Shown here: positions 5,150 to 49,903 of the stretch, one piece after another
How positions within the stretch are numbered: the first letter of the stretch is position 1
How the letters are laid out: each line of letters starts with the position of its first letter
Source of the DNA: Micrococcus endophyticus
GTDB lineage: Bacteria > Actinomycetota > Actinomycetes > Actinomycetales > Micrococcaceae
Direction of reading: 5' to 3'
Assembly (NCBI RefSeq): GCF_014205115.1
Contig: NZ_JACHMW010000001.1
Location: 186,001-250,000, forward strand
DNA length: 64,000 nucleotides
The notes under the pieces: generated by a model
The model's input: the letters and a program-made list of their open reading frames with translations, nothing else
The model's database searches: none
What the model was told of the DNA's origin: nothing
Translations under genes and position numbers: made by a program

Positions 5150-7279
5150 ATGCACACTGTGGACATCGGCCAGCCGTACCCCCTCGGGGCCACGGTGGAC
5201 GAGACCGGAACGAACTTCGCCGTCGCGCTGGCCCGCGAGGCGGAGTCGGTCGAGCTGTGCCTGGTGGACGAGGACGGCGTCGAGACCCGCCTGCCCGTCG
5301 TGGAGCGCCACGGCACCACGTGGCACGTCCACGTGGCCGGCGTCGGGCACGGCCAGCGCTACGGCTACCGCGTGACCGGCCCCTGGGACCCCTCCCGCGG
5401 CCTCTGGCACAACCCGGCGAAGATCCTCGTGGACCCGTACGCCCGCGCGTTCGCCGGCGAGCACGAGTGGGGCCAGCAGCACCACTCCTACGACTTCGAC
5501 GAGCCGGACCGCATGGACACCTCGGACAACCTGGGGACCACCATGCTCGGCGTCGTCACGGACGACGACTTCGACTGGGGCGAGGACGCCCCGCCGAACA
5601 TCGCGATGACCGACACCGTGGTCTACGAGACCCACGTCAAGGGCATGACCATGCGGCACCCCGCCGTGCCCGAGGAGCTGCGCGGCACCTACGCCGGCAT
5701 GGCCCACCCCGAGGTGGTCCGCCACCTCACGGACCTGGGGGTGACCGCCGTTGAGCTGATGCCGGTCCACCAGTTCGTGGACGACGCCACCCTGCAGGAG
5801 AAGGGGCTGAGCAACTACTGGGGCTACAACACGCTCGGCTTCTTCGCCCCGCACGCCGCCTACGCGGCCTCCCAGGAGGTCGGCGGGCAGGTGCGCGAGT
5901 TCAAGCAGATGGTGAAGGACCTGCACGCCGCCGGCCTCGAGGTGATCCTCGACGTTGTCTACAACCACACCGCCGAGGGCAACGACAAGGGCCCCATGCT
6001 GAGCATGCGCGGCCTGGACAACGCCGGCTATTACCACCTCGTCGAGGGCGACGAGCGGCACTACATGGACTACACCGGCACCGGCAACTCCGTGGACCTC
6101 TCCAGCCCCAAGGCCCTCCAGCTGGTCATGGACTCGCTGCGCCACTGGGTCACCGAGATGCACGTGGACGGCTTCCGCTTCGACCTGGCCACCACCCTGA
6201 CCCGCGTGGAGGGCGAGCAGGGCCCGGACATGTTCTCGGCCTTCTTCGACGTGGTCCGCCAGGACCCGGTGCTGCGCACGGTCAAGCTCATCGCCGAGCC
6301 GTGGGACGTGGGCTGGGGCGGGTACCAGGTGGGCAACTTCCCGGGCATCTGGTCCGAGTGGAACGGCATGTACCGGGACACCGTGCGGGACTTCTGGCGC
6401 GGCGAGCCCGGCACCCTCGGCGAGTTCGCCACCCGCCTGACCGGCTCCGCGGACCTCTACGAGGGGGACGGGCGCAGCCCCGGCGCCTCGGTGAACTTCG
6501 TCACCGCCCACGACGGCTTCACGCTGCGCGACCTCGTCTCCTACAACGAGAAGCACAACGAGGCCAACGGCGAGGACAACAACGACGGCGACTCCCACAA
6601 CCGCTCGTGGAACTGCGGCGTGGAGGGAGAGACCGACGACCCCGAGGTGCTCACCCTGCGCGCCCGCCAGCAGCGCAACTTCCTGGCCACCCTGCTGATC
6701 AGCCAGGGCGTGCCGATGATCAGCCACGGCGACGAGCTGGGCCGCACCCAGGGCGGCAACAACAACGTCTACTGCCAGGACAACGAGATCTCCTGGATCG
6801 ACTGGTCCGCGGTGGACGACGCGCTCGTCGCCTTCACCCGTGACCTGCTGCGCCTGCGCCGCGAGCACGCGGTGTTCCGCCGCCGTCACCACTTCGACGG
6901 ACGCCCGGCCGCGCGCGACGTGCACGCCCCGCTGCCGGACATCGTCTGGCTCGAGCCGGACGCCACCGCCAAGACGGAGGACGACTGGGGCTCGGAGGCC
7001 CGCTCGATCGGCTTCTTCCTCTCCGGGCACGCGATCGCCCGCCCCGAGGACGCCGACGACGCGGCGCACCGCGACTTCTACGTGCTCATGAACGCCTGGT
7101 GGGAGCCGGTGCCCTACACCCTGCCCGGCCCGCTCTTCCCGGAGACATGGGAGGTCGTGGTGGACACCTCGTCCCACGTGGCCCCCAGCGGATCCCGCCC
7201 GCGCGTGCGCGCCGGCGAGGTGCTCGAGGTGCCCGCCCGCTCCACCGTGATCCTGCGGCAGGTCCCCGAGGGCGCATGA
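5150..7279 (+). CDS. glgX: Glycogen debranching enzyme (GH13_11)
   Basis: Hydrolyses alpha-1,6 branches of limit dextrin during glycogen breakdown. An N-terminal CBM48 domain ([20 protein letters not shown]) precedes the GH13 barrel with [18 protein letters not shown] (nucleophile Asp), LIAEPWD (acid/base Glu) and [10 protein letters not shown]. The ATG at 5150 gives 709 residues and begins where family homology begins; an in-frame ATG at 5114 would add 12 residues and has a GGAGGG before it, so the start is not certain. It heads a chain of genes joined by 4-base overlaps reaching tsaE. Confidence 0.93.
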
Positions 7280-44030: not shown

Positions 44031-45224
44031 GTGAGCATCGGGCGCGCCTCCGCGCCCCTCGCCGTCCGCGCCTCCGGCCTGCGCTGGCTGCGCACCCGAG
44101 CCGACGCCCTGCACCTGCAGCGGGGACGTCGGCTCGCGCGCGTGCTGGACGTGGACGTCATGGAGGGGCGCGCCGGCGACGCCCGGGTCCGCACCCGCAC
44201 CCTCGTCCTGGCCCGCGACCCGCGGACCGGTCCCGACGCCGCCCCTCCCGGCTCGGCGCGGACGAGCGAGCGCGGCGTCCTCGAGGACGGCACCCTCTGG
44301 TGGTGGGCCGCCGCCGACCCCGCCCTGCCCGGGCTCGCGCTCACGGAGGACGACGCCGGCCTGGCCGCCCTGCTGGGCACGGCCCCGGGCCGAGTCCGCC
44401 TCACCTGGCGCGGCTACCGGCCCCGGGAGCGGGCGGTGATCGCCCTCGACGCCGCGGACGCGGGCCTCGCCGGCTCCCGCGCCTACCTCAAGGTGCTGGC
44501 CCCGGCCGCCGCCGAGGCCGTCGCCGCGCGGCTGAGCGCGGCGCGCGCGGCCGGCGTGCCCGTCCCGGACCTGCTGGCGGCCCCCGAGCGGGGCGCGCTG
44601 CTCCTGGGGAACGTCCCCGGCCTGCCCTGGGGCGCCCTGCTCGGTGACGCGCGAGCCGACGCCCTCGACCCCGCCCGGGTCGCCGAGGTGCTCGACCGGA
44701 TGCCGGCGCCCCCGGGCGAGGCGGGGCCCGCCCCCGACGCCGCCGCCGTGCTGCTCGAGCACGCCGCGTGGGCCGCCGTCGTGCTGGACCCGGAGCGTCA
44801 GGCCGAGTCCGCCGCCCGCGCCGACCGCCTGCGCGCCGCCCTGGCCGCCGGCGACCCCGGCCCGCCCGTGCCGGTGCACGGGGACCTGCACCCGGGCAAC
44901 CTGCACGTGGACGCCTCCGGCGGGCGCGTCACCGGGCTCGTGGACTGCGACGGCCTCGGTCTCGGGCACCGCGTGGACGACTGGGCCACCCTGCTGGCCC
45001 ACCTCGAGGCCGCGGCCGCCGACCTCGGCCCCGGCGGCGGCGCCGTCCGGGCCGTGGCCGAGCGCGTGCGGGCGCATGCCCGCACCGAGACGGACGAGGT
45101 GGCGCTCGCCGCGCGCGCCGCCGTCGTGCTCGCCGCCCTCGGGGCCGACCCCTCCGTCCCGCGCGCCGCCCGCACCGCCCGCCGCGCCGCCGCGGACGCC
45201 GCGCTGGCCCGCGTCAGCCGCTGA
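44031..45224 (+). CDS. Aminoglycoside/choline kinase-like phosphotransferase (APH fold)
   Basis: A 397-residue protein with the APH-type kinase catalytic loop VHGDLHPGNLHVD (Asp and Asn present, about residue 287) and the metal loop GLVDCDGLGLGHRVDDWA. An N-terminal lobe with the ATP lysine is suggested by SRAYLKVLAP. The substrate is unknown; such genes next to small membrane proteins are not evidence of drug resistance. The GTG start follows the 43085 gene by 22 nt. Its last 11 nt overlap, tail to tail, the end of the response regulator gene. Confidence 0.82.
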   Translation: MSIGRASAPLAVRASGLRWLRTRADALHLQRGRRLARVLDVDVMEGRAGDARVRTRTLVLARDPRTGPDAAPPGSARTSERGVLEDGTLWWWAAADPALPGLALTEDDAGLAALLGTAPGRVRLTWRGYRPRERAVIALDAADAGLAGSRAYLKVLAPAAAEAVAARLSAARAAGVPVPDLLAAPERGALLLGNVPGLPWGALLGDARADALDPARVAEVLDRMPAPPGEAGPAPDAAAVLLEHAAWAAVVLDPERQAESAARADRLRAALAAGDPGPPVPVHGDLHPGNLHVDASGGRVTGLVDCDGLGLGHRVDDWATLLAHLEAAAADLGPGGGAVRAVAERVRAHARTETDEVALAARAAVVLAALGADPSVPRAARTARRAAADAALARVSR

Positions 45225-45900
45225 GCTCGTCCTCGCCGGCCAGCCGGTAGCCCAGGCCGCGGACCGTGAGGATCCGCTCCGCACCGATCTTGGCGCGCAG
45301 GTAGCGCACGTACACGTCCACCACGTTGGAGCCGGACTCGAAGTCCTCGCCCCACGCGCCGTCCAGCAGCTGCTCGCGGCTGAGGACCTGGCCGGGGCTG
45401 CGCAGGAACTCCTCGGCCAGGGCGAACTCGCGCGCCGAGAGCGCCACCGTGCGCCCGTCCACGCGCGCCGTGTGGGAGGCCGGGTCCAGCTCGAGGTCGC
45501 CGTGGCGCAGCACCGAGTCCGTCGGTTCCGGGGCGGGGGCGCCCGGGCGCAGGCGCAGCCGCACGCGGGCCAGCAGCTCGGCGAACCGGAAGGGCTTGGG
45601 CATGTAGTCGTCCGCCCCGGAGGTCAGGCCCTCCACGGTGTCCTGGGCCGAGGAGCGCGCCGTGAGGATGATGACGGGCAGGTGCGCGTTCTGCCGCCTG
45701 ATCCGGGCGAGCACGTCGAAGCCGTCCGCGTCCGGCAGGCCCAGGTCCAGGATGACCAGCTCGAAGGCCCCGGTCATGGCCAGTCCCACGCCCTCGGCGC
45801 CGGTGCCGGCCGTGGTGACCGCGATGCCCTCCGCGGCCATGCCCTTGGTGACGAACGCGGCGATGCGCTCCTCGTCCTCGATCAGCAGCACAGGGATCAT
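45214..45900 (-). CDS. OmpR/PhoB-family response regulator
   Basis: A 228-residue two-component regulator. The receiver domain has acidic E8/D9, phosphoacceptor Asp52 in LVILDLGLPDADG, and Lys102 in GADDYMPKPF. The winged-helix domain (about 130-225) ends VVDVYVRYLRAKIGAERILTVRGLGYRL, typical of the family. The ATG overlaps the kinase stop (ATGA), so the kinase at 45897 is its partner. Confidence 0.95.
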   Translation of the reverse strand: MIPVLLIEDEERIAAFVTKGMAAEGIAVTTAGTGAEGVGLAMTGAFELVILDLGLPDADGFDVLARIRRQNAHLPVIILTARSSAQDTVEGLTSGADDYMPKPFRFAELLARVRLRLRPGAPAPEPTDSVLRHGDLELDPASHTARVDGRTVALSAREFALAEEFLRSPGQVLSREQLLDGAWGEDFESGSNVVDVYVRYLRAKIGAERILTVRGLGYRLAGEDELSG

Positions 45901-47330
45901 GCGGGGTCCTTCCCGGGGGTGAGGGAGCCGGCCGGCCGGCTCGGGGTGCTCAGGGGCAGCTCGATGCGGAAGACGCTGCCGAGCCCGGGCACGGAGTCCA
46001 GGCTCACCTCCCCGCCGTGCGCGGCGGCGATCGAGGAGACGATGGCCAGGCCCAGGCCTGAGCCGTCCGCGCGGGTGCCGTGCGCGCCCCGGCCGAACCG
46101 CTCGAAGATCTGGGCGCGGTCCTCGGGGCGCACGCCCACGCCGTGGTCCTGGACCCACAGGCGCAGGGTGTCGCCCTCCACGGCCGAGCCCAGGCGCACC
46201 ACGGTGCCCGGCTCGGAGTACCGGACCGCGTTGGCGGCCAGCTGCAGCCACGCCTGGGTGATCCGCTGGGCGTCGAGGGAGGCGGTGACCTCCGCGACGC
46301 CGTCGAGCTCCCACACGTGGCCGTCGAAGCCCGACGCGCGGGTCAGCACCCCGCGGGTCAGCTCGGCCACGTCCACGGGGGCCGGGCGCAGGAAGTCGGG
46401 GTGCTGGGCCTTGGCGAGCACCAGCAGGTCGTCCACGAGGCGGCTCATCCGGTCCAGCTCGTCGAGGGTCAGGCGGGTGGTCTCGCGCACGTCCGCGGGG
46501 TCGTCCGGGTCCATCACCTCGAGGTGGCCCTGCACGATCGTCACCGGCGTGCGCAGCTCGTGGCCGGCGTCGTCCAGGAGGCGGCGCTGGGAGGCGAAGG
46601 AGTCCTCGAGCCGCTCCAGCATGGCGTTGAAGGAGTGGCCGAGGGCCGCGACGTCGTCGTGGCCGAGCACCTCCACGCGCCGGTCCAGGTCGTGCTCGGT
46701 GACCTCGCCGACCGCCTCCTGGAGGGACTCGAGCGGGGCGAAGACGCGGCGCAGCAGCGGCACGCCCACGGCGAGGGCGAACACCGTGGTGAGCAGCGCG
46801 CCGCCGGCGAAACCGAGGAAGGTGCGGTCCAGCCGGCCGACCTCCGCGTCCACGTCCACGGCCAGCAGCAGGGCGCCGGCGTCGTCCTGGCCCCAGCCGG
46901 TCACGGGCACGACCACGGCCCGGTACGTGGCGCTGTTGGTCGTGACGGTCTCCGCGCGGGCCTCTTGATCGCCCACCCGGGCCAGCGCCCACGCGACGAG
47001 CTCGGGGTCCTCCTCGAGGCGCAGCTCGACGGCGTCGCTCGCGGCCAGCTCGGCCCGGTCGGGCGCGAGGCCCAGGATGCCCTCGTTGTCATGGGGGAGG
47101 ACCCGCAGCATGGCCAGGCGGATGAAGGCGGCGGCGGAGTCCGGCGGCTCGCCCGTCTCGGGGTCCACACCCGTCTCGGAGAGCAGGGCGACCTGATCGA
47201 CGACGCGCTGCAGGCTGGCCTCGATCCGGTCGTTCACGGTGATGCGCAGGACGGTGTAGGCGGTGATGCCGGAGACCGTCAGCGACAGCACGAGGACGAG
47301 GGCGAGGAGGGTGCTCAGGCGCGTGCGCAC
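45897..47330 (-). CDS. Sensor histidine kinase
   Basis: A 477-residue membrane kinase. TM1 is at about 8-28; a 140-residue extracytoplasmic sensor follows, then TM2 at about 172-192. The HAMP domain runs about 193-245, the H-box is DAGHELRTPVTIVQGHLEV, the N-box LQLAANAVRYSEPG, and the G-boxes VQDHGVGVRPED and DGSGLGLAIVSSIAAAHGG. The GTG at 47330 is the only usable start after the upstream stop. The signal is unknown. It sits 66 nt after the acidic-tailed membrane protein gene. Confidence 0.94.
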   Translation of the reverse strand: MRTRLSTLLALVLVLSLTVSGITAYTVLRITVNDRIEASLQRVVDQVALLSETGVDPETGEPPDSAAAFIRLAMLRVLPHDNEGILGLAPDRAELAASDAVELRLEEDPELVAWALARVGDQEARAETVTTNSATYRAVVVPVTGWGQDDAGALLLAVDVDAEVGRLDRTFLGFAGGALLTTVFALAVGVPLLRRVFAPLESLQEAVGEVTEHDLDRRVEVLGHDDVAALGHSFNAMLERLEDSFASQRRLLDDAGHELRTPVTIVQGHLEVMDPDDPADVRETTRLTLDELDRMSRLVDDLLVLAKAQHPDFLRPAPVDVAELTRGVLTRASGFDGHVWELDGVAEVTASLDAQRITQAWLQLAANAVRYSEPGTVVRLGSAVEGDTLRLWVQDHGVGVRPEDRAQIFERFGRGAHGTRADGSGLGLAIVSSIAAAHGGEVSLDSVPGLGSVFRIELPLSTPSRPAGSLTPGKDPA

Positions 47331-47396
47331 CGGCAGGGACTGCCAGCGCTGGCGCAGCTCCTCGGTGCGTGAGGCGCTCAGGGCGTCCGCCCTGGG

Positions 47397-47972
47397 TCAG
47401 TCGTCGTCCCAGTCGTCCGAGTCGTCGTCCCAGTCGTCGTCATCGTCGTCATCGTCGTCCGAGTCGTCGTCCCCGTCGTCGTCATCGTCGTCCCAGTCGT
47501 CATCGTCATCCCCGTCGTCGTCCGCGTCCCACGAGTCTGCCAGAGGCGTGGGTGCGGGCGCGGGAACGCGGGACACGGTTGCGGCGGCGCGGGACTCGGC
47601 CGCGGCGGCGGCGCGGGACTCGGCCGCGGCCTCTTCGGCGGCGCGGGACTCTGCGGCGGCCTCCTCGGCGGCGACGGCGGCCCGGGACTCGGCGGCGGCC
47701 GACGACGACGCCGCGGCGGAAGCGGCGCGGGACTCGGCGGCGGCACGCGACTGGGCGGCCGAGGACGAGGCGGCGGCCGACGACGACGCGGGGGAGGGGC
47801 GGACCGCCGAGGCGGGGCCGCCCGAGGGGGCCGCCGGCATGGAGCCCAGGGTGATCTGCGGGCTCAGGACCGTCTGGCCGGGCCGGGCGGCGTTCAGCGC
47901 GAGGGCGACCGCCCCGGCGACGACGATGAGCGCCAGCACGATCGCGAGGAGGAGACGGGGGGTGCGGGACAT
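47397..47972 (-). CDS. Membrane-anchored protein with ESRAA repeats and polyaspartate/Trp tail
   Basis: A 191-residue protein of no family I recognise. An N-terminal helix (about 7-27, LLLAIVLALIVVAGAVALAL) anchors it or acts as a signal. Residues about 65-130 are Ser/Ala-rich with repeated AESRAA units, predicted helical. The last roughly 45 residues are almost only Asp with spaced Trp (DDDWDDD). Such a tail should bind divalent cations. It is the first gene before the kinase and regulator, so it may deliver or detect the signal. A CATCGT hexamer lies 6 nt before the ATG. Confidence 0.78.
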   Translation of the reverse strand: MSRTPRLLLAIVLALIVVAGAVALALNAARPGQTVLSPQITLGSMPAAPSGGPASAVRPSPASSSAAASSSAAQSRAAAESRAASAAASSSAAAESRAAVAAEEAAAESRAAEEAAAESRAAAAAESRAAATVSRVPAPAPTPLADSWDADDDGDDDDDWDDDDDDGDDDSDDDDDDDDDWDDDSDDWDDD

Positions 47973-47993
47973 GCCACCACGATGCCCCACGTC

Positions 47994-48010
47994 CATGAGG
48001 GGCGCATGAG
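47994..48010. promoter_or_regulatory. Tandem CATGAG repeats, possible response-regulator operator
   Basis: CATGAG at 47994-47999 and 48005-48010, spaced 11 nt, lie in the -35 region of the acidic-protein/kinase/regulator operon. Direct repeats with an 11-bp period are how OmpR/PhoB-type regulators bind, so autoregulation is plausible. Confidence 0.45.
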
Positions 48011-48073
48011 AGACGGCTTCATCCCGCGCGGGTCCGCACCGCCGAGGCGGTCGGTCCGGGGCCGCCGGCCGGC

Positions 48074-49903
48074 TCAGTCCGCGCCGAGCTGCTCCCGGAC
48101 CGCGTCGAGGTCGTCCCGCACCCGCGCGGCGCCGTCGTGGTCGCCCACCGCGGAGAGGCACTGGTGCAGGCCCGTGAGGGCTCCCAGGCGCACGAGCGTG
48201 GACTGGGTGGACTCGCTCACCAGGCGGAAGAGGGTGGCCGCCTGCTCCGGGCTGCCGTCCTCGGCCACCACGGACGCGGCGAACAGCTCCGCCTGGGCCG
48301 CGCCCTCCGGGTCCTGCGCCGCGGTGAACAGGTCGGCGGCGTGCAGGGCCGTCGAGACGGCCTCCGCCCCCTGCTCCAGCGACCACAGCGCCCGCGCGCG
48401 GGTGTCCGTGTAGTCGGCCACCTGCCAGGGCGCCTCGGCCTCGCGGACGAGCGCCACGGCCTCGTCCAGCAGCTCCAGGCCCTCCGGACGCCCGGACTCG
48501 CACAGCAGGTAACCGTGCGCGTGCAGGGCGGCCGGCAGCACGGCCGGGTCCTCGTCCACGGCGCGGCGGGCCGCCGCCACGGCGCGCTCGAACAGGTCCA
48601 GCGCGGAGGGGCGGGTGAGCTCGTCGCGCTCGCGGTTCACGAGGGCGCCGGCCGCCAGGAGCGTGCGGGCGGCGTCCTCCCAGCGGCCGTGGGCCTCGAA
48701 GAGCCCGGCGGCCTCGCGCCACAGGGGCAGCGCGTTCTCCGAGCGGTCCTGGTCGTGGTGGGCGTGGCCGAGGTCCACGAGGGCCCGGGCCTGCTCGACG
48801 TCGTGGCCCTGGGCCGCCTCCCGGCGCACGAGGCGGGCGAGCAGCGGCTCGGCCTCGTCCGGACGGCCGGCCAGCACGAGCTGGTGGGCCCACCAGTAGC
48901 TCAGGCTCGACGCCTCGGGTGCCTCGGCCTTCTCGGCGTGCACGGAGGCCAGCTCCCAGGCGGCCACCGCGGCCTCCTCGTGGCCCTCCAGGTCCCCGGC
49001 CACCCGGCCGGCCAGGGAGGCCGCCGAGGCGGCGCCCCGTCGCAGGCCCACCCGCGCCATGCGGTCCGCCGCGTCCAGGGCGAGGGCGAGCGCCGCCGTC
49101 GGGCGGTCCTGCTCGTGCGCGGCGATCGCGCGCACCGTCGTGGCCGAGGCGAGGACGGCGCGGGCGGCGGGCAGCGAGGTCACCACGGCCGCGGCCTCGT
49201 CCGCCTCCGCGTGCTCGCCCCGCCACAGGTGCAGGCGGGAGAGCAGCAGGTGCGCGCTCGACCACGAGCCGACCGGCAGCACGGCGCCGGCGGCGCGCAG
49301 GCCGCGCAGCGACTCGACGGCGCGGCGGGCCGCCGCCATCGCCCCGTCCAGGTCCGAGGCGTGCACCCGGTGGACCGCCAGGGCCAGCGCCGCCTCGGGC
49401 AGCACGGTGTCCCCGGGCTCCTCGCCCGGCACGCCCGGCTCCTCCTCCACGACGCCGGCCAGCACGGCCGCCTCGAAGCCGTCCGGCTCGCGCACGAGGG
49501 AGGCGCCCAGCTGGGTCTCCAGGGCCGCCTGCCGGGGACGGCCCAGGGTGCGCAGCAGCGCGGCGCGGGCCTCGATCCACCGCGTCAGCCCGGTCTCGTC
49601 CCCGAGCCGGTCCGCGGCCACGGCGAGGGCGCGCAGCAGGGACAGGCGCACGCCGTCCTCGCCCGGGCCCAGGGCCGCCAGGCCGGACTCGGCGCAGCGC
49701 GCGGACTCCCGCGGCTCGTCCCGCAGCGCCGCCTCCAGCGAGAGCTCCCACCACTGCCGGGCGTCGTGGTCCACGGGGGCGGCGTCGACGGCGTCCTCGG
49801 GGGCGCCCGACGTGCGCGCCTCCGCCAGGAGGGTGCGCACGCGCGCGAGCACGGCCGTGGGGCCGACGTCGGCCGGCGCGGGGGTCTGCTGCGGGGCGTC
49901 CAC
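48074..49903 (-). CDS. TPR-like helical repeat protein
   Basis: A 609-residue cytosolic protein made almost entirely of Ala/Leu-rich helical hairpins resembling tetratricopeptide repeats (e.g. ALVDLGHAHHDQDRSENALPLWREAAGLFEAHGRWEDAARTL around residue 400). There is no catalytic motif, signal or membrane segment. It is probably a scaffold or sensor domain protein. The GTG at 49903 is preceded by GGAGAGGAG. It ends about 100 nt before the start of the acidic membrane protein gene on the same strand, but a separate promoter is likely there. Confidence 0.8.
   Translation of the reverse strand: MDAPQQTPAPADVGPTAVLARVRTLLAEARTSGAPEDAVDAAPVDHDARQWWELSLEAALRDEPRESARCAESGLAALGPGEDGVRLSLLRALAVAADRLGDETGLTRWIEARAALLRTLGRPRQAALETQLGASLVREPDGFEAAVLAGVVEEEPGVPGEEPGDTVLPEAALALAVHRVHASDLDGAMAAARRAVESLRGLRAAGAVLPVGSWSSAHLLLSRLHLWRGEHAEADEAAAVVTSLPAARAVLASATTVRAIAAHEQDRPTAALALALDAADRMARVGLRRGAASAASLAGRVAGDLEGHEEAAVAAWELASVHAEKAEAPEASSLSYWWAHQLVLAGRPDEAEPLLARLVRREAAQGHDVEQARALVDLGHAHHDQDRSENALPLWREAAGLFEAHGRWEDAARTLLAAGALVNRERDELTRPSALDLFERAVAAARRAVDEDPAVLPAALHAHGYLLCESGRPEGLELLDEAVALVREAEAPWQVADYTDTRARALWSLEQGAEAVSTALHAADLFTAAQDPEGAAQAELFAASVVAEDGSPEQAATLFRLVSESTQSTLVRLGALTGLHQCLSAVGDHDGAARVRDDLDAVREQLGAD

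Follow-up and report, generated by a model that had tools for sequence, protein, structure and literature searches.

Why is a sensor kinase gene preceded, in the same orientation, by a gene for a small membrane protein ending in almost pure aspartate? The question arises from a locus within a 64,000-nucleotide stretch of DNA, analysed here as a whole and called the window, from a genome of 2.71 Mb in one contig. The preliminary description proposed a three-gene operon headed by the acidic gene, whose product would be either the input of the sensor or the main output of the system.

A conserved three-gene module

The minus-strand order is acidic gene, histidine kinase, OmpR-type regulator, and all three are real genes, on one strand and in the order first described.

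47397..47972, minus strand: acidic one-helix membrane protein gene, 191 aa (translation; homologs in relatives)
45897..47330, minus strand: histidine kinase gene, two TM helices, GTG start (domain search and sensor model)
45214..45900, minus strand: OmpR/PhoB-type response regulator gene (domain search)
44031..45224, plus strand: convergent APH-type phosphotransferase gene (PF01636), overlapping the regulator 3' end
48074..49903, minus strand: TPR-like gene upstream, a flank outside the module (gene order)

The kinase stop codon and the regulator start codon overlap as ATGA. The kinase start codon is uncertain, because no ATG lies ahead of the first helix.

The regulator is present in 8 of the 11 genomes of the genus. 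Synteny across the genus had been named as a check, with separation of the acidic gene from its two-component partners in most relatives as the refuting outcome. This outcome did not occur: in seven of these eight genomes, the window's own included, the acidic gene lies directly before the kinase. In the eighth (G007), the module kinase is truncated or rearranged: on a genome fragment (L026, G007:C1:89500-97500) it is cut at the sensor half and fused to other sequence, which is either real or an assembly fault. The three genomes without the regulator also lack the acidic gene. In G004 and G006 the TPR and APH genes are immediate neighbours and the entire trio is missing from between them, and in G003, G007 and G008 the module sits apart from the TPR gene. 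This absence and relocation of the whole block indicate that the trio was lost or moved together.

The family was represented by 47 loci from about 20 genera. A gene for a one-helix protein with an acidic tail is found directly upstream of the kinase in 37 of them and elsewhere at the locus in 3 more; about 15% have no acidic gene nearby. When this strict criterion of an acidic gene upstream was applied to 20 loci from many other families of the class, 12 satisfied it, and the remaining ones include some with weaker, masked or diverged tails. None of the six paralogous two-component systems of the window's own genome has an acidic gene, and a kinase scan of named genomes returned distant relatives only. 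That the acidic gene is an independent gene was rejected, as it is gained and lost with the two-component genes, and other Asp runs belong to different proteins. The three genes are a conserved unit.

Architecture of the acidic protein

From N- to C-terminus, the acidic protein comprises an Arg-bearing start, one hydrophobic helix, the motif RPGQTVLSPQITLG, an AESRAA linker and the Asp/Trp tail.

47892..47954, minus strand: transmembrane helix, residues 7-27 (sequence and hydropathy scan)
47844..47885, minus strand: juxtamembrane motif RPGQTVLSPQITLG (in relatives, ..LGPxI.. or ..DLGGPIxV..)
47580..47738, minus strand: linker of five AESRAA units, lineage specific (sequence)
47400..47534, minus strand: Asp/Trp tail, residues 147-191, 35 D and 4 W (sequence)

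Because Arg residues precede the helix, the positive-inside rule predicts an N-in, C-out orientation. The protein has no Cys, hence no lipobox, and an N-terminal anchor helix instead. Its 45-residue tail contains 35 D, 4 W, 3 S, 2 G and 1 A, so that the single helix and the nearly pure Asp tail after AESRAA repeats, as first reported, both stand. The repeats themselves are indeed present (ESRAA at positions 80, 95, 108, 118 and 126), but they belong to this lineage only, most relatives having a P/S/T/A/G-rich linker in their place. The periodicity ascribed to Trp was lost on inspection: the tail Trp residues are at 148, 160, 181 and 188, with gaps of 12, 21 and 7, which makes them recurrent but irregular. 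With Trp in only 21 of 55 tails, we rejected it as a conserved or periodic tail feature. The juxtamembrane motif is kept in relatives while linker and tail vary, and [DE][LVIF]G is present in 29 of 57 homologs.

Could the tail be a chance or wrong-frame reading? Dozens of species retain it at the homologous site. Of the non-acidic tail residues, 11.3% are Trp, versus 1.2% in kinases, a roughly 10-fold enrichment, and Leu, Ile and Val are depleted. On these grounds a chance open frame was rejected. Within the genus, the D-D-W-D-D-D pattern occurs in the acidic gene only, and none of the other Asp runs examined there lies in a one-helix Asp-tail protein. L279, L252, L256 and L259 encode a membrane protein of several helices, one loop of which contains a conserved stretch of 6-7 Asp; it resembles cadmium-resistance transporters. 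No matched Pfam or NCBIfam family model describes poly-Asp/Trp surface tails.

A direct repeat ahead of acidic genes

The new element here is a putative operator, the direct repeat TCTCAT-N5-(T)CTCAT, which emerged from the upstream sequences of these genes. In the window it is followed by a candidate promoter box.

47995..48011, minus strand: operator, 11-bp direct repeat TCTCATGCGCCCCTCAT, proposed site of the system's own regulator (10/10 at CTCAT-N6-CTCAT)
47979..47984, minus strand: -10-like hexamer CATCGT, a weak match, 10 nt past the operator and 6 nt before the ATG

Among 51 A/B-type genes, CTCAT-N6-CTCAT is matched at 10/10 in 28 and at 9/10 in 13 (at least 9 in 41 of 51), for a base-shuffle expectation of about 0.5 in all. 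When 120 genomes of the family were searched with a 12-base version of the pattern, 40 of them contained it, at 57 sites in all; the reversed pattern, used as a control, occurred 3 times. The operator ends 22-23 nt ahead of the start codon in 29 of 36 acidic genes, and a -10-like box lies 6-7 nt before the ATG, with the consensus g..A.a.T among relatives, to which the window gene is a poor match. This spacing, with a -10-like box in between, suggests a leaderless transcript starting at the acidic gene's ATG, with the repeat taking over from a -35 box as the site of an activator. Since the site is conserved, the spacing fixed and the gene order kept, a single regulator-driven promoter would serve all three genes.

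Direct repeats with an 11-bp period are a usual operator form of the OmpR-type regulator class, as with PhoP. The repeat found here is tandem, has a period of about 11 bp and lies at a target promoter, which on sequence alone is what an OmpR/PhoB-family system would show. From adjacency, we infer that it is bound by the module's own regulator rather than by a paralog. Outside the family the operator gains an inverted repeat, ATGAGAG-N2-CTCTCATC-N4-TCTCA, and six loci match this extended form at 16/16 ahead of the acidic gene, shuffled sequences reaching 11 at most. Three Streptomyces-like loci (L212-L214) have the same three-gene order with a variant operator.

Other genes behind the operator

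Genes for B-type one-helix proteins, often near the APH gene, frequently carry the operator as well. In most cases it lies at a greater distance from their start codons than it does in the acidic genes; for non-acidic B-type genes of the family this distance is 54-89 nt. Their repeat tails are neutral, basic (SPKSPVSAKSA), mixed (TRDN, WDDRHDD) or acidic. At L207, besides the acidic gene before the kinase, a second small acidic protein with WDDRHDD repeats is encoded beside the regulator (5796-6149). The APH-type gene (44031-45224, plus strand, in the window) recurs beside the module in several families.

The operator also precedes acidic D/Q-rich lipoproteins (L098, L132, L161), a secreted repeat protein (L127, L140) and a phytoene-desaturase-like FAD oxidoreductase (G000, G001, G009, G013, G057). 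In the window's own genome, outside the window, a perfect copy stands before the FAD oxidoreductase gene (G000:C1:319172-319188; L121, L172). This site was found in three genomes with the system, in none of three without it, and was not found in others with it; as only some system-bearing genomes have it, the wider regulon appears fluid. Relatives have a gene for a ZupT-type zinc transporter that is oriented divergently from this region. Zinc control through this neighbour is a weak candidate, since the operator points at the divergent oxidoreductase.

Divergent operator copies, single or clustered, accompany a gene for a GT28-like glycosyltransferase, which has several sites (L115, L157, L169, L170). 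A DUF4956-VTC polyphosphate-polymerase pair lies behind the operator in L135 (1500-3005) and adjoins the regulator in L087 and L211, in separate lineages. Weaker sites in the window's own genome precede an acidic PepSY lipoprotein gene (G000:C1:1390333; L233:1560-2264, plus strand; 2 mismatches) and a membrane protein, both candidates only. The glycosyltransferase and oxidoreductase have no obvious fit to a theme of surface charge.

The acidic tail could be a neutral low-complexity expansion, produced by slippage in Asp codons, of a small membrane protein that is functional in other respects, only the helix and the motif being of consequence. Such drift would agree with tail lengths of about 10 to 79 residues among relatives, and with the uncharged, basic or mixed-charge tails of B-type proteins at comparable sites. 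However, acidic tails, encoded by both GAC and GAT codons, have been retained in several families and about 20 genera; the residue enriched in them, Trp, is at least two base changes away from Asp codons, while Leu, Ile and Val are depleted; and the operator is common to other acidic proteins. We regard neutral expansion as very improbable.

Input or output of the kinase

The kinase has HAMP, HisKA and HATPase domains and the regulator Response_reg and Trans_reg_C. With PF00072, PF00486, PF00512, PF02518 and PF00672 all above cut-offs, the pair belongs to the OmpR/PhoB family. The regulator scored below cut-off against the curated CseB model (182 bits, cut-off 350) and the heavy-metal (CztRS/CopRS) models TIGR01386 (181.7/292.6 bits) and TIGR01387 (189.6/279.2 bits). 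The sensor part was modelled with confidence (pLDDT 94); its fold is PAS/sCACHE-like and modestly similar to those of WalK, SrrB and CzcS. The extracytoplasmic domain of the kinase has a net charge of -15, and none of the 56 aligned relatives has a positive one.

By analogy with CseA, LiaF, EsrI or YycH/YycI, as these are thought to act, the acidic protein might mainly serve the kinase as an accessory input or as its inhibitor. Its helix and the LGPxI motif would then touch the kinase, and this contact would be released or strengthened when the tail binds a cation or peptide. Three points agree with an input role. The acidic gene adjoins the kinase gene in the operon and shares its gains and losses; the juxtamembrane motif is kept where linker and tail vary; and the sensor model is similar to WalK, a kinase that acts together with membrane proteins. 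The sensor charge speaks against it: an acidic tail is unlikely to dock on an acidic sensor by plain electrostatic attraction, although cation bridging or contact through the juxtamembrane motif is possible. Moreover, at two loci of one genus (L088, L089) the acidic gene is on the opposite strand, beyond the regulator, and the same operator fronts unrelated acidic proteins whose genes have no kinase as neighbour, which fits an output better. We hold an input role to be a serious but less likely possibility.

Rather, the locus is probably an autoregulated three-gene envelope-signalling operon, of a kind found widely in Actinomycetes, in which the acidic protein is primarily an output. Of the two roles first proposed, the main output is favoured over the input, because the conserved operator fronts the acidic gene and other acidic surface proteins. 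In this output scheme, the phosphorylated regulator would bind the TCTCAT repeat at the -35 position and activate the leaderless promoter, giving a transcript from the acidic gene through kinase and regulator. The anchored, C-out protein would have a disordered linker taking the poly-Asp/Trp tail into or through the wall, where the tail would add a strong, tunable negative charge to the surface. Further outputs would be the other acidic lipoproteins and the envelope genes that share this operator. Judging from composition, the tail may bind Ca2+, Mg2+ or cationic peptides. Its charge would probably buffer the stress caused by cationic peptides or by free metal ions, divalent or trivalent, and by lowering the stimulus such buffering would exert negative feedback. 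The conserved juxtamembrane motif may in addition let the acidic protein touch the kinase.

Comparison with known systems

In PhoQ-type sensors, an acidic extracytoplasmic surface lies within the kinase itself; here an acidic surface is likewise near the sensor, but also on a separate anchored protein. As in LiaFSR/EsrISR-like three-component systems, a membrane-protein gene stands beside kinase and regulator in conserved order (37/47 and 12/20 loci). We presume L212-L214 to be Streptomyces and, from synteny, their kinase-regulator pair to be the probable SCO2142/SCO2143 ortholog. SCO2142/SCO2143 have neither name nor function in a 2022 review (PMC9739842), and their expression was unchanged in a secretion-stress study of S. 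lividans (PMC3498368).

CseA-CseB-CseC of Streptomyces coelicolor consists of a lipoprotein, a regulator and a kinase for cell-envelope stress, and its operon is positively autoregulated (PMC9739842). The likeness is an anchored extracytoplasmic protein co-operonic with an OmpR-type regulator and kinase. CseA is however a lipoprotein and the Cse operon carries sigE, whereas here we find an Asp-tail one-helix protein, no sigma factor, and the kinase before the regulator. CutRS and MprAB are likewise actinobacterial OmpR-type systems for extracytoplasmic stress. Their published motifs, TAWATAAA for CutR (PMC12802291) and TKTTAAGAAM for MprA in C. glutamicum (PMC12113857), differ from the TCTCAT repeat, and the descriptions consulted name no acidic partner gene. 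Operators of Streptomyces PhoP and PolR are direct repeats of about 6 bp with an 11-bp period, for example GTTCACnnnnnGTTCaC (PMC6754071); the period is the same as here, the half-site another. PolS-PolR was rejected as an ortholog, being DevS/DevR-like. A literature search for Asp-rich partners of two-component systems found none.

Significance

The system is apparently common to Streptomyces-like genomes, the window's genus and many relatives, and no description of it was found in the literature searched. As a tentative extension, in which we place less trust than in the operon itself, it may be a class-wide system setting negative surface charge: one regulator and operator would drive disordered Asp/Trp-tailed membrane proteins, acidic lipoproteins and, in some genera, the DUF4956-VTC pair, with feedback of the acidic protein on the kinase. 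A precise operator, a short target list and a signature protein make the system directly testable. If true, this would give poly-Asp/Trp surface tails a function.
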